Source: Posidonia oceanica
Taxonomy: Eukaryota > Streptophyta > Magnoliopsida > Alismatales > Posidoniaceae
Direction: 5' to 3'
Length of the DNA: 64,000 nt
NCBI GenBank assembly: GCA_037176725.1
Contig: JAZBRS010000014.1
Span: forward strand, 77,234,501 to 77,298,500
The position numbers and the translations under genes are program-made. The stretch's first letter is position 1, and every line of letters starts with the position of its first letter. Below, piece by piece: positions 1-19,943 of this stretch. Below the pieces are notes generated by a model. It did no database searches. It saw only the letters and a list, made by a program, of their open reading frames with translations, and was not told where the DNA came from.

Positions 1-3000
1 AAATACTGAAAAGCACAGATATTCAGAGCAATTTAGCATGATATTTAATTAAAAACTAAGCTGATTAAATGAACAGAGGATTAAAACGCAAAAATGAAAT
101 AACTCAAGGCAGACATGCAATATTCACACAGAAACTTTATACTTAGAAAAATAAAGGAACAGTGTTTGGCCGGCGGTGGCTGGCACTGTAGCAGTGAGCC
201 ACCGGCGCTCACCACCACCGGCACAGGAGGGCTGCGGGCGTCCGGACCGGCGGAGGACGATGTCGGCGATCGTGCGGAGCTCCGGAGACCAACTGGGGAC
301 CATTCTGCTAGCCAGAGCGCGCGGAGAGCAGGAGACCGGCGCCGGAGAAGAAGGGAAGACCGGCGAGTCGAGGACGGAGCAGGAAGGCCAGAGATGCTAA
401 TCTAAAGGGTGGGGAAGCATCGCGGGAAGAAAAGAAGACTAAGGGAGCAAGAATATACCTGTTTCCGTGGCTGAGATGTCCTCCCGACGCAGGTGGTTTC
501 AGAGGTCGCCGGCGGGGCTCGTCCGGTCGCTGTGGACGCTATCTGCTGCTCGCGAGGATTAGGATCGCCTCAGAGCGACCCTCCGGAGCTTCCTGGATGG
601 TTGGACGGCTGTTGCGAAGACTGGAGGAAGATCCGGCTGATCGTGGGTTCACAGAGGCAGCCGGAGGTCAGGGGAGTTGTCTACTGCTCCTCAGGCCGGA
701 CGGGGACCTCTGGAAGATTGCTGGAGGTCCGGTGAGGGGTTCTGGGCGGTCGAATTGTGGTTCTGGAGGCTGTGGAGAAGATTTGGAGGTTGGGTCGGTT
801 TCTAATCAGAGGGTGATGCAGGTGTTTGTGGTGGCGTTTGGGGTCTGTGGTGAGGGAAAGGGCTGAAGATCAGGTGGCCTGGAAAGGTGAAGTGCAGGCG
901 AGTGTCGGGGAAGGATTTGGGGAGATGCAGTGGACTGTGGTGAAGGCAATTTCAGGAAGGAAAGTGTTGGGTTGCAGTTGGTTTCAGTGATGGGAATTCG
1001 GTTGAACTGGTGGTGTTTCTGGGTGGTGAAAGGCCGGGAAATGGTGGAGGGGAGGTACTGGGTTTCTGGGTGATCTTGGGGGATCAATTGGGAGAGGAAT
1101 GATGGCTGGAACGGGCTTGGTTTCTGAGGAAAAAGAAGAGAGAATTTCACTGGATTTTCAGAGGGTGGAGGAGGAGATTTCGGTGGGGAATTCTCTGGAT
1201 TTCTCTCGCTCTCTCTCTCGGATGGCAAAAGGAGTCCTGAAGGAGGTCGAATGCTGAGGCTTTATCAGCTGCTCTCCGGCTTGCTCGCGCGTTCTGGAAT
1301 TCGAATTCCACCGGTGCGATCCACTGCTGCTGAGGGAGACAAGCAGCCGGCGAGACGACAGGCCATTAAAGCCTCCTGGAATCGGTGCTGAGATAGGAGA
1401 GAGCGGCGAGACGCTGTAGATGAAAGGATTGGAGAGCTTGAAATTTAAACGAAGGAGGGAGAGCTGTAGCTGCCGCGGGAGAGAAAAGCTGAGAAGTTGA
1501 AGGAGGAAGAAGAAGGGTGGAGGAAGGCGGGCCGGACCGCTGCGGGCCGAGAAAAAGAAGGAAAAAATGAAGGAAAAAGAGAAATGGGCTGACGGGCCCA
1601 GTAAGGAAAAGGAAGAAAGAAAAAAGAGAAGGAAGAAAGAAAGAAAGGGAAAAGAGGAGAAATAAAATAGGAAAAAAACAAATTAAAAATAAGTAAAAAT
1701 ATTAGGGTGCTTGTGCTGTGAATTAGGATCTTAATCAGATTTTTTAATGACTTCTTTTGGTTAATTAGTGTGGTTTAAATGGGTTTTGGGCTTGATTAGG
1801 GTTTTAGGGTTTTGGTTTTGCTTTTAATTAGTTTTCACTTGATTAAATGTTTGTTAAACCTTTTTTAAATTGTTTTAAAAATTGTGTTTCCCTTGTTGGA
1901 CACTTAGGATATTGATTAGGATTTTTTAGGATTTATTTTTGTATTAATCAGGGTTGTTTTTGGGTTTTTAAGTCTTAGTCTTCTTAGGTTTTTTCCTTTC
2001 TTAAGTCTTTTATATTATGCTTTGATTTTTATTTGCTGATTTTTCTTGGAGTTTTTAATTAGATTTTTCTGGTTTGATAGGGTGTTTTTAAGTCTTTTAG
2101 ATGTGTTTTTCTTTTCCTTTTAATTAAGTTTTTTAACTTACTTTTTCCTATGTTTATTAGGTTAAGTCTTTTGTTTCTTTAATTATTTGTTTTAGTGTTT
2201 GATTTTTAATTCTTCTTTTTAGGGTTTGTCTTTTAATTCTTTTGATGGGGTTTTTACTTTTGGTAGGTTTTGGTTTTATTTTAGTTTTTTCCTTGATTTT
2301 TCAGTGTTTTCTTTTGATTTGTTTTGCATTTTTTAGTTTGTATGTTTGATTTCCCTTTTAGTTTGATTTAGTCAAGTTTAGGTTTGTTAATTGCTTGTTT
2401 AATGTTTTTTAATTGTTTTTTCTTAGGGTTCTGATTTGTTTCTTTTATATTTTGGGGTTTTACAGATTTTTAGGGGTTTTCATGGATTTTTGCAAAAGGG
2501 AGAAAAGGAAAAGAGAAGGAGGAAAGAAATGGAAAAAAAGGGAGATAAAAGGAAAAAGGATAGGTCGGAGGAAAACGATTTTTAAAAATTCAGAAAAAGT
2601 GTTAAAAATAAAGTAAAAATAGGGATAAGATAGAGGAAGGATAGAAGCACAGAGGGGGCCCACAGTTAGACCAGAACAAGGATAAGAAAGGGATGAAAAG
2701 AGAGATGATAATCAGGAGAGAGAGAGGAGAGAGAAAATGATAATCCCGGAGAGAGAAAAGGATAATTTGGGTGAAAGAGGGTCTTAATGGTCTTGGAATG
2801 GGGTGAAAATTGGTGAGTGGGTAGTCTAGGATTTGAAGTCTTGGGTCTGAAGTTTTGGTTTGATTTTAAGGGGGTTTTGGAGGGGTTTCAAGGTGTAGAA
2901 AAAGGGTAGTTTCACCTAAGTTTTCTAGGGTTTTTGGGAATGGGTCAGGTTTGGAAATTTCTAAGTTTTTGGGTAGGTTTGTTGAGTGGATAGTGGTGGG

Positions 3001-3178
3001 TTTTCCTATGGATTTTGGTTAGGTTTTGAGGTTGGGAAGGGGGGCAAAGGTTTAGGTCAAAATGGGTTGTTTCTGAAGGGTAGAGAGGAGGATTAGGGTT
3101 AGGGTTTGGTTGGGGTTTGATCCAGCAATCACCAGGAGGGCTCCAAGGGTCCGAGCCTGCCAAGATGGGGTGTCAACA
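1..3178 (-). repeat. 3' LTR of element A (truncated by window edge)
   Basis: Same sequence as 22440-25618 at an offset of 22439-22440, with about twelve substitutions, all transitions, and one 1-bp indel seen by eye. In element orientation the LTR begins TGTTGACACC (complement of 3178 leftwards), matching the starts of LTRs B, C and D. Zones: telomere-like TTAGGG runs near 3087-3110; a T-rich block 1690-2470 (A-rich in element sense); a purine tract 1480-1680 (pyrimidine in sense); a TATA-like GATAAAG on the minus strand near 1256-1266; then GC-rich U3/R-type sequence leftwards. The rest of the LTR is outside the window. Open frames here lack conserved coding features. Confidence 0.95.
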
Positions 3179-3245: not shown

Positions 3246-3725
3246 TGACTGGCGGGAGCAGCGGGTTGCTATGGGCGTGAGCTACTTATTCGGTGGATGC
3301 ACCGAAGATCGTAGCCCGTTGCCGCAATGCAAGATGCCAGTGTAGATGGATGCTGTGCTGTGTGTGATATGCTAAATGCAATGCAAGAGTTAGTATAAAA
3401 GTTAGTGCAGCTGTAAGAAAATGCTGATGCTGTGCTAGTAATGCTTGATGATGCTAAAGTGATATGCGGTGCTAGCTAAGAAAGTGCTGAGATGATGCAA
3501 AGAAAATGATAAAAAGGCGCGATGTGGTGCGAATGTCCGGCAGGGAGGCCAGACTTGCACGACAAAGCGAAGGAAAACAGGGTGCAGCTGGTCCCCGCCC
3601 GGGGAGCGAGCTAGCAGGAAAGAAGGGTGCGAGGGGAGAGAGGCCAACTCTCCTATCGCAGAAAGGGGGTGCGTGACTTCGTCTTCCTGGGACAAGGTCA
3701 CGCCGAAAAGGAGAAAAAAAATGAT
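3246..3725 (-). other. Distal 3' UTR of element A, no gene seen
   Basis: Non-repetitive stretch conserved in order with 37430-37930 of the B-C element. It contains AT-rich ATGC-rich sequence near 3330-3490 and a GC-rich part near 3530-3720. Open frames on either strand are short and are not shared in length between the two copies, so I see no gene here. Confidence 0.7.
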
Positions 3726-4522
3726 AAGGTGACGGGCTTATCATCCAGATAGTTTACGGTCCTATCAACCGGGAGTGACAGTTTACGGTCCTGTCAACCG
3801 GAGCAGTTGTGAGTGATAGTTACTGGATATCAGCCGTATAACATGGTTGTGGGTGATAGTTTAGGAGTATCAGCCTAACGACAGTTTACGGTCCTGTCAA
3901 CCGGTGGATAGTTTACAGACCTATCAACTGGAGGATAGTTTACAGACCTATCAACTGGAAACCACAAACCATGAGGGATAGTTACTGGATTTCAGCCGTA
4001 TAACATGATTGCGCGTGGTAGTTTACAGTCCTACCAACTGGCGGATAGTTTACAGACCTATCAACTGGAGCGACAGTTTACGGTCCTGTCAACCGGCAGA
4101 TAGTTTACAGACCTATCAACTGGAAACGCGCAATGATGAGGGATAGTTACTGGATATCAGCCGTATAATGCAATTGCTGGTGATAGTTTAGGAGTATCAG
4201 CCTAACGACAGTTTACGGTCCTGTCAACCGGTGGATAGTTTACAGACCTATCAACTGGAGGATAGTTTACAGACCTATCAACTGGAAACCGCAATTGCAA
4301 GGGACAGTTACTGGATGTCAGCCGTATAACGTAATTGCACGCGATAGTTTACAGACCTATCAACTGGAGCGACAGTTTACGGTCCTGTCAACCGGTGGAT
4401 AGTTTACAGACCTATCAACTGGAAAAGTGCAATTACGAGGGACAGTTACTGGATGTCAACCGTATAACACAACTGCGGGCCGACCATGGATCGACCAGAA
4501 GATAGTTTAGGAATATCAGCCT
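3726..4522 (-). repeat. Structured repeat domain: about two dozen covarying hairpin/pseudoknot units in nested inverted repeats
   Basis: Units of about 25 bp recur, each with a pair of arms GATAG/CTATC, GACAG/CTGTC or GGTAG/CTACC (or four-base GATA/TATC, GACA/TGTC), and a second pair in which the loop triplet matches a triplet just outside: CAG/CTG, CGG/CCG or AGG/CCT. This is H-type pseudoknot topology. Four sets of units are enclosed by inverted repeats: 3842-3852 with 3962-3973; 4004-4015 with 4127-4138; 4169-4177 with 4291-4299; 4330-4340 with 4427-4437. All are enclosed by GCAGTTGTG 3803-3811 with CACAACTGC 4468-4476. Between sets lies a conserved spacer unit ending GCCGTATAA. Homologous domains are at 36624-37425 and 55385-55988. 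Confidence 0.85.
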
Positions 4523-4524
4523 GA

Positions 4525-4697
4525 GATAGTTTCGGATATCAGCCTAGCACGAGTGATTGATAGATTGATAGTTTCGGATATCAGCCTAGCACGAGTGATT
4601 GATAGATTGATAGTTTCGGATATCAGCCTAGCACGAGTGATTGATAGATTGATAGTTTCGGATATCAGCCTAGCACGAGTGATTGATTGATTGATAA
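4525..4697 (-). repeat. 42-bp tandem repeat, four units
   Basis: Unit starts at about 4525, 4567, 4609 and 4651, almost identical copies. Each contains GATAG, TTTCGG and ATATCAGCC, so it still has the GATA/TATC arm pair and a GG/CC second pair of the neighbouring structured domain; it looks like a local amplification of one such unit. The open frame across it on the minus strand is only the repeat read in frame. Confidence 0.9.
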
Positions 4698-4721
4698 GAG
4701 GCGGCAAGATCATGATGAGAA

Positions 4722-4756
4722 TGATAAGATATCGGACTTATCGGCCGGCAAAGAGG
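4722..4756 (-). repeat. GATAAG/CTTATC unit
   Basis: A single copy of the longer-armed unit: GATAAG at 4723-4728 pairs with CTTATC at 4737-4742, and CGG in the loop can pair with CCG just outside. The same unit forms two copies at 5607-5690 and a long array in E1 at 29590-30470. Confidence 0.75.
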
Positions 4757-5598
4757 AGATGAGGTAATGATGAGAAGTTGATCTAAGGAAGGGGGTGAGA
4801 TCATGATGAGAAATTAATCTAAAGAGGGGGATGAGATCATGATGAGAAATTAATCTAAAGAGGGGGATGAGATCATGATGAGAAATTAAGCTAAAGAGGG
4901 GGATGAGATCATGATGAGAAATTAATCTAAAGAGGGGGATGAGATCATGATGAGAAATTAATCTAAAGAGGGGGATGAGATCATGATGAGAACTTAAGCT
5001 AAAGAGGGGGATGAGATCATGATGAGAAGCTAAACTAAAGAGGGGGATGAGATCATGATGAGAACTTAAGCTAAAGAGGGGGATGAGATCATGATGAGAA
5101 ATTAAGCTAAAGAGGGGGATGAGGTCATGATGAGAATGTTAAGCTAAAGAGGGGGATGAGATCATGATGAGAAATTAAGCTAAAGAGGGGGATGAGATCA
5201 TGATGAGAAATTAATCTAAAGAGGGGGATGAGATCATGATGAGAAACTAAACTAAAGAGGGGGATGAGATCATGATGAGAAATTAATCTAAAGAGGGGGA
5301 TGAGATCATGATGAGAAATTAAACTAAAGAGGGGGATGAGATCATGATAAGAAATTAATCTAAAGAGGGGGATGAGATCATGATAAGAAATTAAGCTAAA
5401 GAGCGGGATGAGATCATGATGAGAAGTTAAGCTAAAGAGGGGGATGAGATCATGATGAGAAGTTAAGCTAAAGAGGGGGATGAGATCATGATGAGAAATT
5501 AAGCTAAAGAGGGGGATGAGATCATGATGAGAAGCTAATCTAAAGAGGGGGATGAGATCATGATGAGAAGCTAAGCTAAAGAGGGAGATGAGGGAATG
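4757..5598 (-). repeat. 36-bp tandem array (GATGAGATCATGATGAG type), about 23 units
   Basis: Head-to-tail 36-bp units, each with GATGAGATCATGATGAG followed by a variable AAATTAATCTAAAG-like stretch and a purine run. Units differ by few bases, with scattered variants such as TTAAGCTAAAG. ATCATGAT at the centre is palindromic. A homologous but diverged array of opposite orientation, as expected for a plus-strand copy, is at 54530-55370. It sits between structured units, in the 3' UTR position where Tat/Ogre elements are known to carry variable tandem repeats. Confidence 0.92.
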
Positions 5599-5700
5599 AT
5601 GAGAATGATAAGATATCGGACTTATCGGCCGGCAAAGAAGGGGTAAGGGAATGATGAGAATGATAAGATATCAGACTTATCGGTCGGCAAAGAAGGGGTA
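5599..5700 (-). repeat. Two GATAAG/CTTATC units
   Basis: Two copies of about 52 bp. Each has GATAAG, a loop with ATATCGGA, CTTATC, and CGG or CCGG just beyond, giving a six-base stem plus a CGG/CCG second pair. Confidence 0.8.
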
Positions 5701-5790
5701 AGGGAATGATGAGAAGAAATCATCCCATGACGCCAGGAACGTCATGGGGGAAAGGGGGAAGGAATGATACCAAGGGGCGATCAAAAGATG

Positions 5791-5817
5791 CCCCTGGTGT
5801 CGGGATGACACCAGGGG
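5791..5817 (-). other. Conserved perfect 11-bp hairpin in 3' UTR
   Basis: CCCCTGGTGTC and GACACCAGGGG are separated by five bases. The same hairpin stands at the same place in E1 (29473-29499, one mismatch) and in the C element (54438-54464, one mismatch). A looser copy is at about 6600-6640. It is G/C rich and not followed by a T run. Function unknown; folding in the RNA is an inference. Confidence 0.75.
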
Positions 5818-5879
5818 TTGGCCAGCGCGTCCTTGGCATCGAAAGCAGAGAGTGATGACAAGAGTGTCGTGCTTGTCAG

Positions 5880-6860
5880 ACGAGTAGTTTGGGGTACCAG
5901 CCCGCAAGGGACTCAGCTGAGGGCGATCAGCTGGGGACTCTGCCGGGGATGACCAGTCGAGAAGAGTGTCAGGTTGACGGACTTTTCGCCGAGCAGTTTG
6001 GGGTGCCAGCCCGCAAGGGATTCAGCTGAGGGCGATCAGCTGGGGACTCAGCTGGGGTGACCAGCCGAGAAAAGTGTCAGGTTGACAGACCTTTCGCCGA
6101 GCAGTTTGGGGTGCCAGCCCGTAGAGATGATAATCTAGTTGGGGGCGACCAACTGGGGACACGACTGGGGATGACCAGTCGAGAAGAGTGTCTGGTTGAC
6201 GGACCTTTCACCGAGCAGTTCGGGGTGCTAGCCCGCAAGGGATTCAGCTGAGGGCGATCAGCTGGGGACTCAGCTGGGGTGACCAGCCGAGAAAAGTGTC
6301 AGGTTGACGGACCTTCCGCCGAGCAGTTTGGGGTGCCAGCCCGCAGAGATAATGATCCAGCTGGGGGTGACCAACTGGGGACTCGACTGGGGATGACCAG
6401 TCGAGAAGAGTGTCAGGTTGACGGACCTTTCGCCGAGCAGTTCGGGGTGCTAGCCCGCAAGGGATTCAGCTGGGGACTCAGCTGGGGTGACCAGCCGAGA
6501 AAAGTGTCAGGTTGACGGACCTTCCGCCGAGCAGTTTGGGGTGCCAGCCCGCAGAGATAATGATCCAGCTGGGGATGATACCACAGGGTGGCCAAACGAT
6601 GCCTCTGGTATCAGGATGTTACCAGGGGATGGCCGATGCGCCCCTGGCATCAGGATGCAAAGACAGATAAGCGAGTGGATGGATGATAGGTTGACGAACC
6701 CATCGCCGAGCAGTTTGGGGTGCCAGCCCGCAAGGGACTCAACTGAGGATGAACAGCTAAGGAGGATGACAGGTTGACGGACCTTTCGCCGGGCAGTTTG
6801 GGGTGCCAGCCCGCAAGGGACAGTGGTCCAGCCGGGGATGACCAGCTGGAGACGCCGGAC
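5880..6860 (-). repeat. About 222-bp tandem repeat with covarying hairpins (GGGCTGG units)
   Basis: Roughly four tandem units with a period near 222 bp, the last ones shortened. Each holds hairpins with six-base loops GGGCGA or GGATGA closed by different stems: CAGCTGA/TCAGCTG at 6023-6042, AGTTGG/CCAACT at 6137-6154, CGACTGG/CCAGTCG at 6162-6181, and a nine-pair stem at 6382-6405. About nine smaller units contain GGGGTGCCAGCCC or GGGGTACCAGCCC, where GCA/TGC switches with GTA/TAC while GGG/CCC stays paired. Small open frames here (for example 6057-6251, 6279-6515) recur with the repeat and are not genes. Confidence 0.82.
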
Positions 6861-7126
6861 GGCAGAGCTTGGTGTCGCGGGCCCGCAGATGCTCTGGGCT
6901 CCGGATTGGGTGTTGAGGACTTCGCCGCGTTGGGGTGTCTGCAAGTCTGATTAGAGGGCCCAAGATAATGATGATTATGATATGCAATGCAGCAAAGAGT
7001 CTTGATGTGCAAGCAGAAAGCAAAAACAGTTTCCATTGATATGATCTTGATAAGTACAATGCCTGCGGCAGGCCAGAAATGTACAGCACAATTTGAAAGA
7101 AGACCACATGATGGTCGCACAAGGGC
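6861..7126 (-). other. Spacer between PMD ORF and 3' UTR repeats
   Basis: Immediately downstream of the PMD stop codon in element sense. Similar sequence follows the PMD genes of E1 (29036-29330) and C (53904-54200), including a GGGCCCTCTGGCCAGACTTGC-like stretch. It may be the end of the PMD 3' UTR; no gene seen. Confidence 0.55.
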
Positions 7127-8329
7127 CTAGTCAACCCGGGCCTTCTTTGGCCGCCTGGAGTCGGGGAATAAGGGGCTGCCTGGCGGGATTTCAGTAATTG
7201 GCCAGAGTTGTCGGACTTCAGCTTCATAATCAGGAGTGCATCCAGTACCTCTCACAACTGCAACGTCTGTAGATCGGACCCCATGCTGCATCAGACTAGC
7301 AAGCTTCTTGGTCGAGGCAGTGGTGCTGAGAGGATAAGTCTGTAGAAGCTCGGGCGCTGTACTGTCAATGAAGTCGCCCTGCTGGAAGCCGAACTGGCGC
7401 ATGACCCTGATTGGATGGTGCTCTACGCCTGCTGTGAAGCCTGGAAGTATGATCAGCCGCGTGTCACGCGCGCTGAAGAAGATTGTGAATGGCTCTGCTG
7501 CAGAGGGAACGATGCGCCAGATCACAGCGTCGTCAGTCAGTGCTGACAGCCTCTCGTACTCGTCTTTGACGCTCTTGTTTGCTCTGGTACGGGCGCTGCT
7601 ACAGTAGGCTTCGAAAGCATGCACTTGAGGGCGCAGGATGTCCATCTCTAAGTGCGCGGTCAGCCAGACTTGTATAAGTGCTCCGCAACCATGGAAGTGG
7701 CGGCAGCGATGAGAAATGCGGTCCAGCCCGCGATAAGTCTCTGCCAAGACAACTGGTGCCAGATCTATGTGCTGGGTCACTACAGCTAATGCAATCTCTG
7801 CGACCTCGATGGCCACTGTCAGTCGGCCATGAGTAAAGATTAGTTCGCCCAGAAAGCGGATGACGAACCCTCGGAGCCACAGCTCATCTCCGAGGTCAGC
7901 ACGCTTGTTCAAGATATCATCAAAGTATGCAAGGCGAAGCATAGGTTCTGGTCCACTGGTGCAGATCAGGTGCTGTTGGCAGGCTTGAGTGGAGAGACCA
8001 GTCAGTTGGTTCAAGACCCGGAGATATCCGTCGCGCCTCATGAAAACAGGTGGCCCCAAGATCTTTGAAAAGCCGCATATCCGACGCACCTCTTCTAGTG
8101 TAGGTGTCAGCTCAGTTTTGTTGAAGCAGAAGACATGATGTGCCGGCTTCCAGAATCTCGCGGCGGCACACAGAAGGTGGCGGCTGACCTCCACATCAGC
8201 AGCCTTTAGCAGCTTGGTTGGTATGCCCCACAGGCGCAACTTTTCACAGTCTACCTGAGTGAGCTTGCCGATCCATTCTCGCAGGGTTTCCGAGCAATGT
8301 GCGGGAGTCAGCAGAGTAGGAAAGCCCAT
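7127..8329 (-). CDS. Extra ORF of element A: plant-mobile-domain (PMD) like protein, intact
   Basis: A 400-residue frame from ATG, same start and length as the copy at 52701-53903. Features of the PMD family (the 'aminotransferase-like, plant mobile domain' proteins such as MAIN/MAIL1 relatives): residues 60-87 contain HHVF, TELTPTLEEV and CGF; residues 150-225 contain RGFVIRFLGELIF, a helix-rich stretch and GCGALIQVW; residues 305-316 contain PIRVMRQFGFQQ. The C-terminus is basic (RRPKKAR), a possible nuclear localisation signal. PMD proteins of plants act in the nucleus in gene and transposon silencing and genome stability; the role inside a retrotransposon is unknown. It lies downstream of integrase in sense orientation, about 1.5 kb after the pol stop, so probably needs a separate or spliced RNA. 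It has no stop codons, unlike the adjacent gag-pol. Confidence 0.85.
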   Translation of the reverse strand: MGFPTLLTPAHCSETLREWIGKLTQVDCEKLRLWGIPTKLLKAADVEVSRHLLCAAARFWKPAHHVFCFNKTELTPTLEEVRRICGFSKILGPPVFMRRDGYLRVLNQLTGLSTQACQQHLICTSGPEPMLRLAYFDDILNKRADLGDELWLRGFVIRFLGELIFTHGRLTVAIEVAEIALAVVTQHIDLAPVVLAETYRGLDRISHRCRHFHGCGALIQVWLTAHLEMDILRPQVHAFEAYCSSARTRANKSVKDEYERLSALTDDAVIWRIVPSAAEPFTIFFSARDTRLIILPGFTAGVEHHPIRVMRQFGFQQGDFIDSTAPELLQTYPLSTTASTKKLASLMQHGVRSTDVAVVRGTGCTPDYEAEVRQLWPITEIPPGSPLFPDSRRPKKARVD

Positions 8330-9845
8330 TACGCTGATTTGCAGAGGGACAGGCAGATAGCTGCAGAAACTTGAAAGTACCTGCTATCAATAAACAGTCA
8401 GATCTCGCAGGCATATAATCTTTGACAACAAGCAGAAGCTGAGACTGAAAATGTAGTTCCATATGCATTCAGCAGTTGATAACAGAACATAGCAATTAAG
8501 CACAAATAAACAAAGGGAATTGGCAGCAGTCCGGCGAATGCGGGGGCGAGGGCCGGCAGGTGATCTGGACCGGCGCAGCTTGAGTGTCGTCGATGCGCTC
8601 TGCTGGGGAGGAGTACTGTCTCAGGGCCAAAGCGCGTTGCAGAGCGGGAGAGATTGATGGAAGAGGAAAGGAATGAAAGAGGATGCATGTATGCATGATG
8701 CAGGTGATATGCTTATGAAGATGAGTAGTACGCTTAGATGGATGAGTATGCTTGGGTGGATGCTTGAGTGCCCTCAGCGTACGGAGTGTTTTGGTGCCTG
8801 CTGCAGAGGAAGGGAGTGGTCCTTGACTCACTGGGCCCTACTCAGACTCTCGGCTTATTGGTGGCGCTCCGGAACAGGTTGTTGGCATTATAGGTGGTGA
8901 TATGGTGAGGACAGGCTACTGGCTGCACTCTCAGGACCTACACCTATTCTTTCAGCTCTCTCTTTTTTTGAAAGGTTTCTCCCTCATAGGTATGCAGTCT
9001 TTCTCTGCCCCTAGCTAGGAGAAGGTATGTGTTTGCTTTTGGGAGGATGTGGTAGACCCCTTTTTCAGGCTTGACATGCTGGGGATCTCTGGTAAAGTAT
9101 GGGGGATAACGGTGCCTTGTGTTTTTTGGGCTAGCTTTGCCCTTTTCTTCTCTTTTTTTTTTCTTTTTTTTTTGTTTTGCTTGCTTTTCTCCCTTTTTGT
9201 TTTTGTTTTTGTTGTATCTCTTTTTTTTCCTTTTTTTTTTTTGCTTGGTTTTCTTTTTCCCCTTTTTTTTCAGGCTTTTGCTATCCCCATTCTGGTGGCA
9301 AAAGAAGGGTGCTTGAATTGTAATGGATTTAGGCTTTGGGTCTGCTGTGTGATGGGTAGAAGGAGCAGGGTTAGACTGCACACCCCTATCTCTAAGGCCG
9401 GCTTCTGTCTTCGTCTTCTGTTCCTTGGATGTGCCCAAACCTAGATGTCTATTCTCACTTTTTTTCAAGCTCACATCCTAACATTTTTTCCTCCCTCAGA
9501 GGTGTATGTCCTTGCGAGATTGGGCAGTTCGCCTGTCCTTATTGGTGGTAGCTCCCTCACTTGCTAAGACATCTAAGTAGTGCCAGGTGAGGCAGGGTGA
9601 CTCTTTCCAGAGCAGGCAAGCACTTCCGGTTGTCATCACCGGGCAAAAGATGTGATGTTTGAGAGGATGACGATGATGATTTGAAAAGAAAGGGTGCAAG
9701 AGCTGAAAGGATGACGATGATGATTTGAAAAGAAAGGGTGTAAGAGCTGAGAGGATGATGATGATGATTTGAAAAGAAATGAAGTAAGGAGGCGAGAATG
9801 CAAGTATAGGTGGGAGAAGGGCATCTGCAACGGGGCCGCTTTCGG
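8330..9845 (-). other. Region between integrase and PMD ORF, with homopurine tract
   Basis: No conserved frame. In element sense the order is: integrase stop, a variable CATC/CGTC repeat area (9650-9790), a conserved block, a long A-rich purine tract (complement of 9125-9275), a second conserved block near 8830-8960, then a stretch ending in candidate splice acceptors (TTGATAGCAG and TTTCTGCAG, complement of about 8360-8400) before the PMD ATG. The same layout is found at 26443-27834 and 51280-52700. A purine tract outside the 3' PPT could be an internal priming site, or simply a tolerated low-complexity run. Confidence 0.55.
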
Positions 9846-10904
9846 CTACTGATAGTATTTCTTCAGATAGCAGAGGTTGACGGGCTCAAACTGCTCGACC
9901 TGGTCCATATCCTCAAGGGTTACAGCGCCTCCCGAAAAGATCCGCTTGACCACAAAGGGGCCACGCCAATTGGGTCGGAATTTCCCTCGACCGTCAGGCA
10001 AATGAATGGCGCGCAAGACAAGGTCCCCTGGCTGGAAGCTTCTGGGCTGGACCTTCTTCAAGAATCCTCTGGCCATCCGCTTCTGTTAGCAGTGAGCGTT
10101 GTGCATGGCTTGCAATCTGTGCTCATCAATCAAGTTCAGTTGGACGCAGCGGTCTTCGACCCATTCTGCTTCTTCCAACTCAGCTTCCCGCAGGATCCTC
10201 AGGGAGGGAATCTCCACTTCAACCGGTAACACCGCTTCCATGCCGTACACCAGAGAGTACGGGGTGGCTCCTGTAGAGGTCCGGATTGATGTCCTGTACG
10301 CCCAGAGCGCGTACGGGAACTTGTCGTGCCAATCCTTGTGGGTTTCTGCCATTTTCTTCAGGATCTTGACAATGTTCTTGTTTGCAGATTCCACTGCTCC
10401 GTTCATCTAAGGCCGATAGGGCGAGGATCGATGGTGCTTGATCTTGAGACTTTGCAGGTATTCTTCGATCCTTTTGGCAACAAAGTTTGAGCCGTTATCA
10501 GAGATGACTGAGTGCGGGACCCCATATCGGGCAACAATATTGTTTCTGATAAATTTTTCTATTGCCGCAGCGGTGACTGTCCTGTAAGAGGCTGCTTCCA
10601 CCCACTTGGTAAAGTAATCGATCGCTACCAGAATGTAACGATGACCATTTGAAGCAGCAGGGTGGATGGCGCCAATGACATCGATCCCCCAGGTGGAGAA
10701 AGGCCATGGCGAAGACATGTTGTGCAGCTGATGTGGAGGGGCCTTGATGAAGTTACCATGGATTTGACAGTTGTGGCATCTACGCACGAACCGGCAGCAG
10801 TCGGCTTCCATGGTCTGCCAGAAATAACCTTGCAGCATGATCTTCTTGGCCAGGAGGACGCCGTTCATGTGCGGGCCACAGGTCCCCGCATGCACTTGAA
10901 GCAT
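9846..10904 (-). pseudogene. INT: Element A integrase
   Basis: Zinc-binding H-H-C-C: HAGTCGPH and CHNC; catalytic D-D-E: WGIDVIG, ISDNGSNF and MNGAVE; C-terminal GPF-type module NWRGPFVVKRIF. No chromodomain follows; the frame ends YLKKYYQ. It would insert cDNA into the genome. Stops at 10407-10409 (TAG, C copy has CAG) and 10086-10088 (TAA, C copy has TAC) break it. Confidence 0.92.
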
Positions 10905-11192
10905 CAGCGTGTCAGCCTCCGATTTGTTCAGGCAGCACAGTAGCATCTGATTGTATGACCTTCTGTACAGCTGCCCGGCCCCTAACACATATTTTGACGC
11001 CAGACGCGCCAGAGTCCTCATGTCTGTTGCTGTGGTATCAGGAGGGAAGCTTCCAGACTCCAGGAAGGATTTTATGTCCCGATACCAGGGCTGCTCCTCT
11101 GCGGGATCCGCTTCCTCTATGCTCATGCAGTATGCAGGCTGTTCAATGCGAGTAACTGATACATCCACAGTGCTGTCTTCTGAGATGGTGAG

Positions 11193-11570
11193 CCAGGATG
11201 CCAGAGTTGCTAGTGCGTCTGCATACGCGTTCTTTGCTCTGTTCAGGTACGTGAAGCGGATGCTCTTGAATTCTTCCATCAGCCTCAGCAGGTGTTCGTG
11301 ATACGGCACAAGCTTGGGATCTTTTGTCTTCCAATCGCCGTTCACTTGAGAAATCACCAGCATGGCATCGCCGTGTACATGCAGCTTCTGCGCCTCATGC
11401 TCGAGGGCGACTTTCAACCCCAGGATGCACGTTTCGTACTCTGCTTCGTTGTTTGTGCAGGTGAAAGTCAGCTTCCTTGCGAAAGGAGTCATCTGTCCTT
11501 GGGGCGTGGTCAGCACTGCGCCTACGCCTCGGCCCTTCTTGTTGACTGCACCATCAAAGTAGAGCTGCCA
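11193..11570 (-). pseudogene. aRH: Second, archaeal-type RNase H (aRH)
   Basis: Residues WQLYFDGAVNKKGRGVGAVL, TNNEAEYE, HGDAMLVISQ and NAYADALATLA supply a full D-E-D-D set for cleaving RNA in RNA/DNA hybrids. This extra domain between the RT-linked RNase H and integrase is a hallmark of the Tat/Ogre branch. The domain itself has no stop codon. Confidence 0.9.
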
Positions 11571-11756
11571 TTCCTCTGCTTCTTCAGGGTCTTTCTGCTC
11601 AGAGTCCTCCATTGCAAAGAGAATGTCTTCATCAGGGAACTGCGTCTGGAGGGGTTGGTATTCAGGCAGAGGGAGGTCAGCAAGATGGTCTGCCATTGCT
11701 TGACCCTTCATGGACTTCTGTGTGACAAAGGTGATGTCGTACTGGGATAATAACAT

Positions 11757-13343
11757 CTACCACTTAGCACATCTGCCCACCATGGCCGGCTTCTGAAAGA
11801 GGAATTTGATGGGATCATGCCGGCATAAGAGCTGCACTGGGTATGCCATCAGGTAGTGCCTTAGCTTCTGTGCAGCCCAGACAAAGGACAAGCAGGTCTT
11901 CTCTAGTGTACTGTACCTGGCTTCACATTCATTAAACTTCTTGCTCAGGTAGTAGATGGCGCGCTCCTTTCTACCAGATTCGTCATGTTGGCCCAAGACG
12001 GCGCCCATGGAATGCTGCGTGGTAGAAAGGTAGAGAAGCAAAGGTCTCCCCGACGTAGGCGGGACCAGGACAGGAGGCTTGATCAATAGCTGCTGGATCT
12101 TGGCAAATGCAGCCTGACACTCCTCGCTCCAGTGAATCTGTGCATTCTTCTTCAAGAGCTTGAAAATGGGTTCACAGATGGGCGTAAGCTGTGCAATGAA
12201 GCGACTGATAAATTGTAAACGCCCAAGCAAACTTCTGACTTCTTTTTCAGTCTTGGGGGGTGGCATGTCCACGATGGCTTGTGCTTTCAACGGGTCCACC
12301 TCAATCCCCCTTTGGCTAACAATGTAGCCGAGCAATTTGCCAGAAGATACCCCGAATACACACTTCTTGGGATTCAAGCGCAGCTTGTACTTCCGTAGAC
12401 GGTCAAAGAGCTTTCTGAGGCAGGCAAGATGATCCTCGGGCTCTTTGGTTTTGGCAATCATATCGTCTACATAGACCTCCACTTCTTGGTGCATGAGGTC
12501 GTGGAATAGCGCAGTCATGGCCCTTTGATAGGTTGCACCAGCGTTCTTCAGACCGAACGGCATGACTTGGTAGCAGAAGACTCCCCAAGGGGTGATGAAT
12601 GAAGTCTTTTCCATGTCTTCTTCTGCCATCTTGATCTGATTGTATCCAGAGAAGCCGTCCATGAAGGAGAGCATTTTGTGGCCCGCTGTATTGTCGATTA
12701 GGACGTCAATGTGGGGCAATGGAAAGTCGTCCTTGGGACTTGCCTTGTTCAGGTCCCTATAGTCGATGCAGATCCGGATTCGGCCATCTTTCTTGGGCAC
12801 AGGTACAATGTTTGCCAGCCATTCAGGATTAAGAACGACCTTCAGAAAGTTGACTCCAAGCTGCTTCATTATCTCTTCTTTGATCATGAGCAGCCACTGC
12901 GGTCGCCATCTTCTTAGCTTCTGCTTTACTGGCTTGGCATCTGGATTTAATGGCAGATTGTGCACCACTATCTCTATGTCAAGGCCGACCATATCTTCAT
13001 AACTCCAGGCGAAGACATCCGCATATTCCCTCAGGAATGCAATGAATTCTGCTCGAGCCTGGGCGGACAGCTGGGCGCTGATGCAAACTTCTCTTACTTC
13101 CTCAGTTGTGCCAATGTTAACAACCTCCGTTTCTTCTTCAACATGGAGGTTGGGGCCTTCTGAGTCGTCGTCATAGGGCCGGAACTCGGGCAAAGGTTCA
13201 TCAGTCTCATCTATGCCCGTATCATCCTCTTCTCCATAAGCAACAAGTTCTGAGAGGATCTCTTTCTCGAAGGAAGGGCTTGTGATGTCGAAAGAGTGCA
13301 TGTGTTCCGCTGCTTGACCCTGGTGACGCTTCAGGATGGTCAC
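11757..13343 (-). pseudogene. RT: Element A reverse transcriptase and first (degenerate) RNase H
   Basis: RT motifs are complete: RICIDYRDLNKASPKDDFPLP, SFMDGFSGYNQI, FCYQVMPFGLKNAGATYQ, and the catalytic YVDDM at about 12459-12473. It copies element RNA into cDNA. The connected RNase H (about 11760-12146) keeps YSTLEK and AAQKLRHYL, but the first catalytic aspartate position reads LLLYLS with serine, so this domain is probably inactive and serves as a tether, as known for elements with a second RNase H. The segment is open; it is bounded by TAG codons at 13593-13595 upstream and 11757-11759 downstream. Confidence 0.93.
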
Positions 13344-14339
13344 GCTTACTCGAGTATTCTTGTAGCCTCGGTGCGCGACCTCTGTCCCAGCAACTCCTTC
13401 TGCTGTTTGCTCTAGCCTGACTGACTCTGCTGAGTGCTTTGCTGATTCTGCTGAGGGCTCAACTGACTCTGCTGCTGACTGCTCTGCTGACTGTGCTGCT
13501 GAGGCTGCTGAGGCATTCTGCTCTGCTGCTGCTTCTACTGCTGATGCTCCCTCCTCTGGATCTTCTAGTGCGCTCGTGGAGGATATGCCGGACTAGCGGC
13601 TGATCTGGTCACTGCCGCTTGATGCATTGCTCAGGTGAGGCATGGGTTGCACAAACCACCTAGACCCGCCTTCTGGTTGAAGAGTGATGAGCTCATCTGG
13701 TCTAGGGGAGTCCGGCGCTGCTGAGTCTTCTAGAACCATGATAGAAGCATGGTCCTCTTGCAGAGGAGGATCCGTGACTACGGCTTTTCCTTTCCTTTCT
13801 GCAGCTTGATGGTCTGCCAGGTTTTCTGCCATTGACTGGAGTTGTTCTTGATAAAGCAACTCTAAGTCGGACATCCAAGAATCGACCTGGGCTTCTATCG
13901 CCACTCCTTCTTCTTCGTCTGAGGGGGAGTCGACGTAGTAGGCGCCGGGGGCCTGCGGCACTGGCCCGGCTGCGAGACGGATCGCCGCTCTTGGAGTCTG
14001 CATGATCTGGTTCACGGGCGCGTCCGCTGATGGCAGTTCAGATGTAGAAGGCCCAAATGGACAAGTCAGCGGTGCTACTGATGAATAAGCTTCCAGGGTC
14101 ACTGTGGAAGAGTAAGCAGGGGTGCTCTTCATAGGGCTCAAGGGCCCGGAGAATGTAGTGCTCAGTTGGCCTTTTGTATCGGGCCGTAACTGAGGGAGCG
14201 CAGCCTCTGACACCATAGGGTCTTGCCATGAGAGCTGCAGGTGGTTGTCAGGAGAATGCGGAGCGGACTGCGCCAGCTGCATTCCTGAAGATGATGCTGA
14301 AGGAGCGGGCTGGGCCACGCTGCTGACTGAGTTGATAGA
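13344..14339 (-). pseudogene. Low-complexity linker between protease and RT
   Basis: In frame with both neighbours, rich in Ser, Ala, Glu and Pro; one more recognisable stretch (VDSWMSDLELLYQEQL) is shared with the C copy near 49930. It contains the stop at 13593-13595. In Ogre elements the protease-RT interval is the site of an intron; here the frame is otherwise open throughout, so splicing is not required to join the frames. Function not recognised. Confidence 0.6.
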
Positions 14340-14783
14340 CTACCCCTCCAGAGATGGGGGCAGTGGCACTGATGTGTCTGTGACCACTGGTAGCATACTT
14401 GGTTCTGCCAAGGGGAGTGTCTCTGTCTCCTGCACTGCTGCTGACTGTTCTTGGAGAACTGGTGTGGCTGCAAAAGGATGAGAACTTGCATCTGCCACAG
14501 GGCCTGCTGAACTGCCTGCTGTTTCTGCCAGAGGGGGAGCTAAATAAACTGACTGTGGGGCCTCTGCTCTGACCACTGTTTCTGCTGAGTTGATTGGGAC
14601 TGCCTCTGTTGCATCAGACTGCTCCTCATCCGAGTAGTAGTCCTCAATACACACCCAATCCTCTGCCGGCGCTGTGGCTTGGTGGTCGGTTGATCCCAGA
14701 ATTCCTGCACTGGTAAAGTTAGTGAGGTCTCTGGGGATGGCTGGTGCACGATCTCTGAGCTGGAAGCAGTGATCTTCGTTGAG

Positions 14784-14900
14784 CTTTGGTTCGTAGCCGA
14801 GACCTTCAGACTTCCTTCGCTCCACTGCTATGATCGGCTCCGCGATCCCTTGGCCGTGACGCCCGAGCGGCGTACCCTTTGTGTAACCCCACCTGTGACA
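14784..14900 (-). other. G-patch-like motif after protease
   Basis: After the protease the frame reads WGYTKGTPLGRHGQGIAEPI and then GLGY, with the glycine spacing of a G-patch (an RNA-binding glycine-rich motif also found next to the protease of betaretroviruses and in some plant retroelements). The C copy keeps the same residues at about 48900-49015. It is short and degenerate, so this is a similarity by pattern only. Confidence 0.5.
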
Positions 14901-15128
14901 TACATTCTCGACTATTCGAAAGGGGTTGCTGTGAACGGTCAAGGAGTTGACACGTTCAAGATCAGGAACGAAGTTAACTGGCTCACACCGGTTAACGCGA
15001 TATAGGGCTTCAGAAGTCTCGGGGTCAAACGGGATAGATTGCGAAGACACGGGAGAGACTGCTTCAATCCGCTCCTTCTCAAAGTTCTCCGCCATGACGA
15101 CAATGACATCATCGCCACGACGGTACTT

Positions 15129-15470
15129 TATCATTCGATGGAGGGTCGAAGGAAGGACCTGATGCTTGTGAAGCCAAGGGCGCCCAAGCAGAAGATTGAA
15201 GTTAGGCTTCAAGTCGACGACATAGAATTCTACGTCGAAGACGACCGGACCGATAGCCAGAGGGATAATCAGAATCCCCAGAGCGTCATGGTGAGTGTTG
15301 TCAAAAGCAGTCATTCCCTTCACGGCTGGCGTGATATCCTCGGCTTTGAATCCGAGCTTGGTTGCTGTACGCAAGGGGCAGACGTTAAGGCCTGACCCGT
15401 TATCAACCAGCGTTAGGGGAATGCGAAAGCTTTTGAACTGCACCGTGACGAATAGGGGCTGGTTGTGATT
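15129..15470 (-). pseudogene. pro: Element A aspartic protease domain
   Basis: Shows the retropepsin active-site pattern LVDNGSGLNV (catalytic Asp codon at 15402-15404; family usually D-S/T-G, here D-N-G-S) and the later flap/terminal motif NLLLGRPWLHKH. It would cleave the polyprotein. The catalytic triplet is read as D-N-G in A and C alike, so it is not an isolated mutation. About 600 codons of proline-rich, low-complexity sequence with repeated HLLGRP motifs separate it from gag. Confidence 0.85.
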
Positions 15471-16559
15471 AATCCCTGCCGGAGGCAGCTCATCGCTCGT
15501 AAAAGAGATGACCTGGGGCTCCGCGATTAACCCAACCATGCTCTCCAAGGCAGAAGGCTCAATGGACTGGGACACACGAGCAGCCTGGAACACGCGAAGA
15601 AAAGCCTCGCGGTGCTCGACAGAAGTGTGGATCAAATCCCAGATGGAGATGTCGGCTTTAACCTTCTTAAGCTGGGAGGTTAGGTCTGCTTTAGGTTGGC
15701 TTCTCCTAGCAGCTGGAGGGGTGATTCTAGCAGGTTCTAAAGGGGTAGTGGCAGGAAGCTGGGTTACTACGGGTTGGCTAGGGATTTGGCTAGCTACGGG
15801 CTGATCTGGGGTTGGATCTGCTAAGGGTTGGCCCGAGGGTGGGGGTATAACAGGTCCAGGGTGAGTTGGCCTAGTTGCTGGTGCTGGGGGCCTATAAACC
15901 CTCCCCGATCGCGTTACTTCCGCGTACATTTCTGTGGCGTAGCTGTAAGGGACGTGATGGGTGTCCAGGGTCAAATTAACGACGACTGGAGCATGTGCTA
16001 CGAACACAGGAGGGGTTACAGGGGGACCTACAGGATGTTGAGGTCTATCCAGTGGGTATGGTTGTTGGGGTGGGAAGGCTGGGGCAGGTTGAGGTCTGCC
16101 TAGAAGGTGTAGCCGAGGCTGCCCTAAAAGGTGGATGGGAGAACTAGGCTGGGCTCTAGCTAAGAGGTGTACAGGGGATTGAGCCTGAGGGAGCACTGTG
16201 GGAGGCGCGAGAGGGCGCTCCGGCCTAGCACGCGGTCGGATCAAATGGATTCCCGACTCGGAGCCGGCAACTGCCGCCAGATAGAGACTAACTGGGAAAG
16301 GCTCAGAGATGTCAGAGATAAGATCAGAAGGGTCTACTACAGAAGTAGCAGGCCCAAAAGGAAAGATAGAGTGGACGCCTGAGGTTCCCGCCCCTCCCGG
16401 ATAAGAGTGCTCCGGTAAAGGTTGGCGGACGATGCCAGAATGCGGGGGAACAGCTGGAGATGCAGATGCATGAGTGTGTGCTCGAGTGGGTGCCTCGTGC
16501 GTGTCGATCACAATCGTTCCCGATTCGATCAAATCCTGAATTGCGTTCCGCAGGGAGAA

Positions 16560-18611
16560 GCAATTATCCGTCGAATGCCCGACGCTTCGATGGAAATTGC
16601 AGAAGAGGTCCGGCCTAAACCAAAGCGGCAGAGGGCTTGGCGACGGACGGACCTCCGGGAACTTCAGGAGCGATGCCACCTTCGGCAAGATGTCCGTGAG
16701 TGGTTCCACCAGTGGGGTGAAATTCCTCCTCTCAGCGGGTGGTCTTCTTTGCCTTGGGTGCGAGCCTTGCTGGACCGGTGCGGCAGGATAGACCGGTCTA
16801 GCGGTGGTAGTGATGTGCGGTGTGTGCGGGTTCCTAGGTGCAGGAGCGTACACCATCTGAGCTGGAGCAGGCCGAGACGGCAAGCGAACAGGCACAGTAG
16901 GAGAATCGACGAATGCAACAGCGGGTTTCGGCGAATCCTTCCTCTTCGGGCGGTTGTTGTTGCTGCCGCTGTTGTTGTTGTTGGAGGTGCTGCTGTTGAC
17001 ACTGTTGCTGCTGATCACTGCCTGCTTAGCGAACACAGAGAGAGCCGGGAAGTTGCCACTCCGCAAAGAACTCTCCACGCGCGCTCCAGCTCTGATGAGT
17101 GCCGCAAAAGTAGTGACTGGCTGAATGCTAAGCAGAGCTCTGAGAGACGGCTGCGGCCCTTTGATAACGATCTCGATAGACTCCTCGTCAGAGGGTCTAT
17201 CTCGAACCTGGGAGGCAAGGACGCGCCAGCGGCCGACGTACTCCCCGAACGGCTCGCCAGAGTTCTGCTTGATGGCGATCAAGTCCGCCCTCTTTGGGAC
17301 AAGATCGAGGTTGAAGGAGTATTGCTCCAGGAACGCCTGGCTGAGGTCGTTCCAAGTCTTGATGGCTGACATATCGAGTGATGTGAACCACTTGAGTGCC
17401 GGCCCGGTCAAACTCTTCTGGAACAAGCGGATCAGCAACCTCTCGTCAGCCTGAAGCTGAGCGAGATCACCGCAATACGCCTTCAGGTGTGCTTCGGGGC
17501 AGCCCCTACCATTATACTTCTCGAAGTCCGGGATTTTGAACTTCGGAGGGAGTACCGCCTCTGGAAAGCAACAGAGGTCTCGGAATTGGTAGGTCTGGTG
17601 CTCGGTACCCTGCACTAGTCGTAGTGCCTTCTCCAAGACGTCCATCCGGTTATTGATGGGGTCTGGGATTGCTGCTGTAGGAGAGGGATCAACAGGGGTA
17701 GTGAGCACATACGCCGAATGGGTCGCACCTAAGTGCTCCTCCGGATCTACCATAGCGTCGCCTGGTGGAGCAACGGGATGGCCGGCGTATCCGTGCTGGG
17801 GGATAGTGTATGCAGGAGTGTATGCAGGATGCTGGACCTGAGGGAGAGGAGAAGAATAAATGCCATGCTATGCTGGGATAGGGGGAGGATGACGGAGCGC
17901 CAGTTGCTGTATAGGCGGGGTGCCAGACAGCGAGCCAGCAAGATACTGGGCTCCAGCCGATCCAAAGGATTGACCACCAGGAGGAAGTGGAGCATGCTGT
18001 GCCAAGTGTTGTGCAGGAGGCAGTAGACGGGCCCCCACCGTCGGTACCGTGAGCAGTTGCGACGATGGTCGAGGCAGAGGTGCAGAGGTTGATGCATGAA
18101 ATGCAGGAACTGGCCTCGGGGGAACCTCAGGGACGACAGAGACAAGAGAAGGACGAACTGATAGAGCCATGCCCTGCAGTCTCTGGGCGAGCTCCATCAG
18201 GTGCTGGTACTGCGCCTCGGGCGTCTCGCCAGTGGGGACGCTGAAGTGCAGTGCCGGCGGGGATTGAGAGGCAAGTGGCACGGACACAGACTGTCCGGGA
18301 GGGAAGGATTCTACAGAAAGTGCCGCAGCAGCGGTGGAAGGGATGTCGAAAGCGACGTATCCCTGGGACGGAGGGGGCAGTGGCGTCTCCGGAGCGCGAG
18401 TAACGGTCGTCAAGATAGACTCGGCGACCGGATCCAGAGGAAGGGAGGCTTGCCACTGTCCCGGGGTGTACTGAGAACCTAGAGACGTTAGAGGAGGAAA
18501 CCCTGGCGTCGGAGGGGGAACAAGAGGGACAGAGATAGCAACCGGGGGGGCCAGAACGGAAACACCCTCCGTGACAGGAGTAAGAGAAGGCTCATTAACG
18601 TACTGGGCCAT
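16560..18611 (-). pseudogene. gag: Element A gag portion
   Basis: N-terminal 290 codons are proline/serine rich and low complexity. The retrotransposon gag core lies at about 17060-17576, with the ARLDxW-type helix region visible as LKWFTSLDMSAIKTW and AFLEQYSF. A zinc-knuckle variant follows at 16560-16601: C-x2-H-x4-H-x4-C (CNFH...GH...C) instead of the usual C-x2-C, a form seen in this retrotransposon branch. Gag would form the particle and bind element RNA. One nonsense codon (17868-17870) separates the proline-rich N-terminus from the core; C and D carry CAG there. Confidence 0.88.
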
Positions 18612-19943
18612 CGCTGACCTAGAGCGTGTGAGAACAGGGCTGCGACGGGTATTCAAGCGGTGAGTCCTACGAGGAGCTATCGTCACAAGTGCGGATAGCT
18701 CAGAAGGGGAATGGTCGCGAACTAGGTCGCAAAAAGGGCGTCAACGAGGGTCGATACTCGAGCTCTGGCAAAGGGAAACTCGCTTACCGATCACGCTGAC
18801 ACAACAGAAGGAAATTAGGGTTAGAAACTAAAAGATGAATGCAAATGAGTTAGTTAAGTGGCATGAATGATGTGCATGCTTTCTAGTATGCCCCCCCTTT
18901 CCTAGCTAGTGTTTCCTAGCAAGGCTGTCTACTCCGGGTATCCCTGGGTGTACGGGTCACCGACTCAGGTCAGAAAAAGTAGGTCCCCTGTCTAACTCCC
19001 GGCCCAAAGCTCAGGTAATGACAGGGTGGTGCGTTGGTGGCCTCTACCCCGCCAAAGCGTGGGTGGTACCCTCTACTAACACCGACACGACCCCCGGACA
19101 AGGAGGGGACGGACCGACCAACTTATGCCACGCCCAAAGCAGTGGAACAAGAGGCCGGAACCGTCCTTCGCAGACTAGTAGGTGGACTCAGAGGAGAAGA
19201 GTGCATGCCCTATATGATGCTTATGCAAATGATTAGAGTTTTTTATCTTGCACATTTTATTAACCAAAGGGGGTGAAGGATTGTTTGTAGTCTCTAGTTA
19301 CCCCTAGAAGTTCTTTTTACTTGCACTTTTTAGTTAACCATGGGGGAAGCAGGCAAGTTTCTACTATCCTAAGCATGGCAAGTGCAAAAGGGAAGAAAAT
19401 CAGTTAAGCATGGCAAGCAACCATCATACAACACAACAAAAGGCATGTTCATGGCATGTGCGAGTGTTTGTGAATATGATGGTGAAAAAGAAACATTCAT
19501 CAAGTCAAAAGGCAGGTAAGCATAGCATGTGCGTGTGTAGTGACATAGCAAGGGTGTAAAAGAAGCATTCAACATCCAAAAAGCATGTATTTAGCCAAAC
19601 AAAGTATGTAGACATGTAATGTGCGAGAATTAAAGCAGTAATAAGCAAGTAAGGTAAAGTAAGGTAAAAGTAAGCAGACTGTAAAAGAAATAGGAGCATA
19701 AGCAAGACAGTAAGTAAATAAACAGGCAAAGGAGCAAAGCCAGGCAGAAGAAAGCGCAAACCGAGACAAAAGAGGTGCAAAACCTAAGCAAAGTAGCTAC
19801 GAAGCGACTCGCTAGGAGTTTGCACGGAAAAGCGAGCAAAACGGGCGAAGAAGGCACACAAGGCAGACAAGGCTGCAAAACAAGCGAGCGAAAAGCCGGG
19901 AACGAAAGCCGGAGTCTAGTCTTTTCCCCAGCAGAGTCGCCAC
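18612..19943 (-). other. Element A 5' leader with primer-binding site and predicted splice acceptor
   Basis: In element sense, one base after the LTR end, TGGCGACTCTGCTGGGGA (complement of 19925-19942) is the primer-binding site, identical in position in B, C and D; tRNA-Arg is the primer reported for the Ogre group, which I could not check. Further on come ATGC-rich sequence with many ATGs, then a strongly conserved block (complement of about 18900-19230) with CCACGCTTTGG-type hairpins, then branch-like CTAACCCTAAT and acceptor TTGTGTCAG (AG at 18796-18797). From there to the gag ATG there is no ATG. Confidence 0.7.

Follow-up and report, generated by a model that had tools for sequence, protein, structure and literature searches.

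The stretch of DNA analysed in this study (64 kb, hereafter the window) carries at positions 3726-4697 a tandem array of short units with interleaved complementary arms, and the question raised by this locus is whether these units fold as RNA pseudoknots, on which strand they would do so, and what the folded array would bring to the element that carries it.

Host retrotransposon and orientation of the array

After self-comparison, the window was found to contain nested Tat/Ogre-type LTR retrotransposons, with several related copies that are partly nested or in tandem and lie in the opposite orientation. The array belongs to element A, of which the left end lies outside the window; the part of its 3′ LTR within the window occupies positions 1-3178 (minus strand; 99.6% identical to 22440-25618). 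Pfam matches at 10407-18740 on the minus strand identified gag, G-patch, RT, RNase H, a second RNase H (RVT_3) and integrase, all in a single frame with four internal stops; a protease match was below the Pfam cut-off, and the first 290 codons were without a Pfam match. The final long ORF ahead of the 3′ UTR (7127-8383, minus strand) encodes a plant mobile domain (PF10536) and also indicates the sense strand; a second PF10536 match is located in the window at 52635-53903, and 15 homologues of this ORF were found in ENA contigs. Since the genes of element A are on the minus strand, the segment 3726-4697 represents 3′ UTR, and the array RNA is the reverse complement of the plus strand. On this sense strand the array is followed by approximately 540 nt, then by a AGGGAGGGG tract and the LTR start TGTTGACACC. 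A preliminary description of this DNA had correctly proposed a 3′ UTR setting, the array being located between the last ORF and the 3′ LTR, but it took the plus strand as the RNA, and neither the antisense orientation of the array nor the longer stems enclosing groups of units appeared in it.

The second RNase H (RVT_3), which we take to be the archaeal-type enzyme, sits after RT/RNase H and ahead of the integrase. The Tat clade and its Ogre-type elements are characterized by an additional RNase H of archaeal type, placed between the first one and the integrase, and an extra ORF with the plant mobile domain, present in 57% of Ogre elements, is a frequent though not strictly defining Ogre-type feature (PMC6317226). 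These criteria agree with an assignment of element A to the Ogre branch of Tat. For Retand, an antisense ORF with TRP28 between pol and the 3′ LTR is described for 97% of clusters (PMC11963269); between 3178 and 10407 of element A, no plus-strand ORF of at least 200 aa was detected.

Two further kinds of repeat were noted in the same 3′ UTR. Between its structured parts stand about 24 copies of a 36-nt repeat (4750-5605, minus strand), pyrimidine-rich on the sense strand and with no obvious pairing, and long ordinary inverted repeats were recognized by eye at 6570-6720 and 5740-5850 (minus strand), for example GATACCAGAGGC...GTGGTATC and CACCAGGGGC...GCCCCTTGGT. Judged from the sequence, a large share of the 3′ UTR may be structured.

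Predicted pseudoknot units and enclosing stems

Using a template search, we detected 116 units in the whole window, 27 of them in the array of element A between 3748 and 4674 (types I-IV, minus strand); together with a V-like unit at 3723-3749, which overlaps the last type-I unit, the number becomes 28, in good agreement with the approximately 28 units reported before. The type-I unit reads in the sense direction C-CAG-TT-GATAG-GT-CTG-TAAA-CTATC, in which stem S1 is CAG/CTG or CGG/CCG (up to 4 bp), loop L1 is 1-2 nt, stem S2 is GATAG/CTATC, GACAG/CTGTC or GGTAG/CTACC, 1-2 nt stand between the stems, and loop L3 is 4 nt. For types II-VII the order is unchanged and the letters differ (AGG/CCT, GGG/CCC, GATAAG/CTTATC, GCA/TGC). 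Two interleaved complementary arm pairs, the mark of an H-type pseudoknot, are thus present as had been claimed, and 22 of the 27 units are paired at every assigned position; the other five are a unit in which one S2 pair is broken, at 3977, and four identical type-IV units whose outer S1 pair is A.G. A strict pseudoknot scan of the span, with one rule for both strands, found 18 pseudoknots for the minus (sense) strand, compared with 6 for the plus strand; in 100 dinucleotide shuffles, the sense scan gave 1.99 on average and never more than 5. Consecutive units within clusters are joined by linkers of 0-4 nt, and the unpaired letters are invariant, with L1 TT and L3 TAAA in 39/39 type-I units of the three window arrays. 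The one unit pattern tested had no exact match in viral and prokaryote collections, and Rfam gave no match over 3600-6900, even at E up to 5.

The related units with GATAAG/CTTATC, GTA/TAC and GCA/TGC that had been noted elsewhere were all recovered within the window. A further part of the 3′ UTR of element A (5881-6853, minus strand), identified by the template search, carries type-VI (GGG/CCC with GCA/TGC) and type-VII units, with 6 pseudoknots in the strict scan against a shuffle maximum of 5, and six of the eight type-VII units are short of two or more S2 pairs. Element B (29593-30470, plus strand) contains 20 type-V units, in which CGG/CCG is combined with GATAAG/CTTATC; this array has an 87-bp double period, and 10 of its units have an A.C in S2. 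The arrays C2 (36625-37449) and C1 (55386-55988), both on the plus strand, are homologous to that of element A.

Some observations on these other elements may be added. LTR starts with the sequence TGTTGACACC lie directly within repeat arrays of other elements at 30471 and 55989 (plus strand), the latter cutting array C1, which suggests LTR insertion into the arrays at both positions. Near 50375-50384 (plus strand) of element C, the counterpart of positions 10750-13436 of element A, from RT to integrase, is missing, so that element C looks non-autonomous. A 30-nt 5′ UTR repeat with inverted arms GGCAC-N8-GTGCC was found at 35380-35765 (plus strand) and also at 43073-43157 and 60721-60920, with about 13 copies in the longest array; the opposite end of the RNA may thus carry a structured repeat of its own.

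In the array of element A, stems of 8-12 bp, each of different sequence, close clusters of three or four units, and one of them closes the whole domain (all coordinates on the minus strand). This master stem, P0, is formed by a 5′ arm GCAGTTGTG (4468-4476) and a 3′ arm CACAACTGC (3803-3811). Inside it, P1 (CGTAATTGCAC, 4427-4437, with GTGCAATTACG, 4330-4340) encloses three type-I units, while four units each are enclosed by P2 (TGCAATTGC, 4291-4299, with GCAATTGCA, 4169-4177), P3 (ATTGCGCGT, 4126-4134, with ACGCGCAAT, 4008-4016) and P4 (CATGGTTTGTGG, 3962-3973, carrying one bulged T, with CCCACAACCATG, 3842-3853). The linkers carry these arms: one follows each type-III unit, another precedes the type-III unit that comes next, and the two match over the intervening three or four units. 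Array C2 has a domain stem, CGCAAATGCCA/TGGCATTTGCG, without a counterpart in element A; in other copies this stem is CGCAATGCCG/CGGCATTGCG, with one pair replaced and one whole pair missing from both sides.

Unconstrained RNAfold draws P0-P4 in element A and the matching stems in C2, and in both arrays, when 120 assignments of the arms were compared, the summed energy was lowest for the true partners. The comparison was extended to 58 of the 59 arrays examined (56 loci fetched from the genome plus the three window arrays; the master stem P0 not counted), and the mean energy for 263 domains was -15.9 kcal/mol with the true partners against -6.0 with swapped arms, the true partner being the best in 261 of the 262 domains tested. 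The same architecture was found in all five loci picked by the ORF and not by the array, one of which (L069) holds part of the array only; in these five loci, 105 of 120 units are fully paired and 878 of 893 pairs are kept.

In each of the three window arrays (4475-4500, minus strand; 36655-36680 and 55417-55442, plus strand), a short predicted hairpin with GATCCATGGTC is located directly ahead of the master stem. The palindrome CCATGG beside P0 was considered as a kissing loop and rejected, because in all three window arrays its letters pair inside a short hairpin instead.

The many recurrences of GATAG and GATAAG cores could also be taken as double-stranded DNA sites, either palindromes or GATA-like motifs, for a transcription factor, but the units with GACAG/CTGTC and GGTAG/CTACC lose the GATA core and keep the pairing, and neither interleaved arms nor enclosing stems would be necessary for such sites, so that we consider DNA binding highly improbable.

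For the strand, loop lengths were compared with a simple A-form model of groove crossing, based on A-form helix parameters and on a groove direction chosen to place the minimum for crossing the deep groove at 6-7 bp. In this model the loops can span both grooves in each of the seven unit forms when these are read as sense, whereas in the antisense reading L3 falls short in every one of them; type III, which is bulged, is outside these forms. As the loop lengths fit on the sense strand only, the model favours folding of the sense RNA. The earlier proposal that the connecting pieces fit the grooves of a compact pseudoknot thus holds on the sense strand and fails for the units as they were written, since in the plus-strand form GATAG-ttta-CGG-..-CTATC-aa-CCG the 2-nt connector would have to cross the shallow groove of a 5-bp stem, for which the model requires 3 nt. 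The antisense reading of the units is accordingly disfavoured by the loop lengths, although the nested folding energies are compatible with it (z of -2.30 and -2.75 for sense and -3.61 for antisense, with 20 shuffles each), giving no advantage to the sense strand. The strict scan gave sense/antisense counts of 18/6, 19/14, 13/9, 8/10 (the element B array) and 6/4 for five array stretches, with shuffle maxima of 3-5 (30 plain shuffles each), and because the antisense count is above the sense count in one stretch, the scan alone cannot fix the strand everywhere. A rough pseudoknot energy, which uses a Dirks-Pierce penalty and leaves neighbour stacking and proteins outside the model, was better than that of the best hairpin in only two of six units.

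Paired changes in the window and among genomic copies

For the three window arrays, all 39 type-I units are paired at 8/8 positions, and three of the eight pairs are changed on both sides among 7 distinct sequences, confirming the claim that the arms change together, with few events. The percentage paired and the covariation score were reached in 0 of 500 shuffles, the count of double-changed pairs in 4 and the count of pair types in all 500; the paired changes of type I are real, though few events stand behind them. Among the 14 units of type III, a change from GATA/TATC to GACA/TGTC is added, with S2 broken in one unit and one A.C in S1. In a mixed-type MAFFT alignment, where S1 is out of register (51.8% paired, against 97.4% for S2), the whole structure was no better than shuffles in percentage paired (46/500) and double-changed pairs (250/500), and better than shuffles in double-changed cells (2/500). 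Units are homogenised within an array. The possibility that the paired changes go back to one or two duplicated unit types, which had been named in advance as a refutation, is partly borne out for type I with its three double-changed pairs, but does not extend to the whole, which includes type III, types VI-VII and six different enclosing stems.

In order to compare copies, the genome (2.96 Gb, 80 contigs) was searched, and the first look gave 2802 candidates with the A array as query, 2020 with the C2 array, 15672 with the mobile-domain ORF and 7423 with a stretch of locus L056, of which the best 40 were scored per query; the retrotransposon family seems very abundant. The variant test used 56 loci with 1,699 units, corresponding to 55 copies because L030 and L048 belong to a single copy as separate pieces; L030, L048 and L045 are incomplete spans. 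We counted distinct variants and defined as common those seen in six or more loci, those in 2-5 loci belonging to neither the common nor the private group. At paired sites, the steps between common variants were 3 double and 4 single, and those of private variants 2 double and 71 single (Fisher p = 0.004); the sites changed were 10 paired and 21 unpaired for common variants against 75 paired and 45 unpaired for private ones (p = 0.004). The variants in 2-5 loci comprised 28 single changes at paired sites, 12 at unpaired sites and no double change, and an earlier run with 20 loci and a threshold of 4 loci gave 1 double and 31 single private changes. The 71 private single changes consist of 29 G.U, 22 A.C and 20 others, and the G.U and A.C counts pick no strand. 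With distinct variants as the unit of counting, and with two common forms linked by an A.C intermediate that is present in six loci, the independent events are few. This distribution suggests random decay in resident copies as opposed to pairs kept in the spreading lineage. Since double changes take a larger share among common than among private variants, the pairing was either selected or copied in the active lineage, and we consider it very probable that pairing on the sense strand has been selected or copied in this way.

The array might also be a by-product without RNA function, in which abnormal strand transfer in reverse transcription makes the tandem repeats and template switching within them mends imperfect inverted repeats, so that paired changes arise in the absence of selection. 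Such strand transfers have been hypothesised as the origin of the 3′ UTR tandem repeats of the Tat lineage (PMC7004042), and the homogenised units and the small number of independent double changes agree with it. Against it, common variants change less at paired than at unpaired sites, only one strand has loop lengths that stay inside the limits modelled for a pseudoknot, and the enclosing arms, 86-113 nt apart in element A, and their counterparts elsewhere are the best-matched partners in nearly all domains. The ratio of 71 private single breaks to 2 double changes further indicates that resident genomic DNA is rarely mended in this way, whereas such mending may still take place in the course of reverse transcription. 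Taken together, we judge a mere by-product rather improbable.

Three further propositions were discarded in the course of this comparison. Stronger conservation of the array than of the coding sequence appeared in loci picked by array similarity, a biased first sample, in which the mean pairwise identity fell from 98.6% in the array (16 loci) through 93.8% in the stretch that follows (15) and 92.3% in the ORF (13) to 91.4% at the LTR start (14); the claim was dropped because the five ORF-picked loci (ORF 97%) gave best array segments of 91.4-99.0%. Three domains common to elements A and C of the window have ungapped identities of 96.8, 88.3 and 93.3%, compared with 85.3-89.1% in four other stretches, which is suggestive only. 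A candidate non-coding derivative that keeps the array, L056, was rejected as evidence for a function in cis because, of the best 40 of 7,423 candidates for its 751-base junction query, none but L056 itself matched over the full length, the other 39 scored places ending near base 471-491. Element C2 was likewise rejected as a non-coding derivative, its flanking LTRs being about 81% identical over 1.9 kb.

Proposed role of the array and relation to known systems

Near-identical repeated sites with invariant unpaired letters would suit repeated binding of a protein. We propose that the array units fold on the sense RNA as H-type pseudoknots, grouped by the longer predicted closing stems, that the folded array would serve as a multivalent docking platform for an RNA-binding protein, probably the Gag of the element itself, and that this docking would pick out the full-length RNA for packaging. 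To this reading as a whole, in which we infer the formation of both stems together in vivo, the binding of a protein, the identity of that protein and the packaging outcome, we assign a probability of about 0.37. In more general terms, and still at less than even odds, the 3′ UTR tandem repeats of the Tat/Ogre retrotransposons in this genome may constitute an RNA scaffold of approximately 28-36 pseudoknots per copy, clustered on covarying stems within a master stem, that acts as a selected grip marking the element's own genomic RNA. Packaging by Gag would be the first choice, with export and translation or stability close behind.

As an RNA transport element comparable to the musD MTE and other retroviral examples, the array would recruit host export factors and allow long unspliced RNA to leave the nucleus, and its location between the coding region and the 3′ LTR is in agreement with such a role. 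To our knowledge, however, known transport elements use far fewer units than about 28. In addition, the protease-RT frame of element A is open with only two isolated stops, so that no intron is indicated there, and an intron between protease and RT was discarded on this ground as a rationale for an export element. In the musD MTE, export depends on a pseudoknot together with a kissing loop (PMC5767303), and for plant LTR elements, RNA export is described as without direct study so far (PMC12786077). We regard export as unlikely.

The array might instead enhance translation or stability in the manner of the tobamovirus upstream pseudoknot domain, with eEF1A or a similar protein bound near the 3′ end of the RNA, as would be in line with the consecutive units, the 0-4-nt linkers, the short L1, the 4-nt L3, the plant host and the 3′ UTR position. 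The pseudoknot units of TMV have a similar geometry. The TMV domain, consisting of three consecutive pseudoknots, binds eEF1A (PMC4683447). On the other side, ARAGORN detected no tRNA-like structure in the window, Rfam gave no match at E up to 5, and the array is not at the RNA end because about 540 nt and then the LTR follow, leaving an enhancer of this type doubtful.

The array shares with the Tat/Ogre 3′ UTR tandem repeats the element type, the position before the 3′ LTR and the tandem units (PMC7004042, PMC6317226, PMC11963269), but those repeats are presented as hypervariable and of unknown function, whereas the units here covary and are nested in larger stems. Such repeats seed satellite DNA (PMC7004042), and a survey of 2025 states that their origin and function remain unknown, its main text containing no occurrence of 'secondary structure', 'RNA structure' or 'hairpin' (PMC11963269). 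Pseudoknots likewise occur in the genomic RNA of the LTR retrotransposons Ty1 and Ty3, the two predicted for Ty3 being in GAG and POL, neither tandem nor in a 3′ UTR (PMC11381356). The musD MTE likewise acts in cis as a structured RNA of an LTR retrotransposon and includes a pseudoknot, but belongs to a mouse element, and a repeated pseudoknot array is not among the features described for it in the part of PMC5767303 available. Close to the present array in its architecture is the tobamovirus domain, with consecutive small pseudoknots likewise in the 3′ UTR of a plant RNA; there, three units adjoin a tRNA-like structure (PMC4683447), while here about 28 predicted units are nested and no such structure was found. 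The statement of the preliminary description that no family of this kind is described therefore holds as far as Rfam matches and titles are concerned, no title among those listed in searches of the open-licence PMC literature reporting a pseudoknot array of this kind, but passes over this close parallel in plant viruses. Tat-lineage elements are common in plant genomes, and if the pairings and the matched outer stems are kept, their repeats would have been shaped by selection on folded RNA as well as by accidents of replication. From the sequence comparisons, the array of element A would thus belong to a known kind, a structured cis-acting 3′ UTR RNA of consecutive pseudoknots, and would be new in its nested arrangement and in its location within a retrotransposon.
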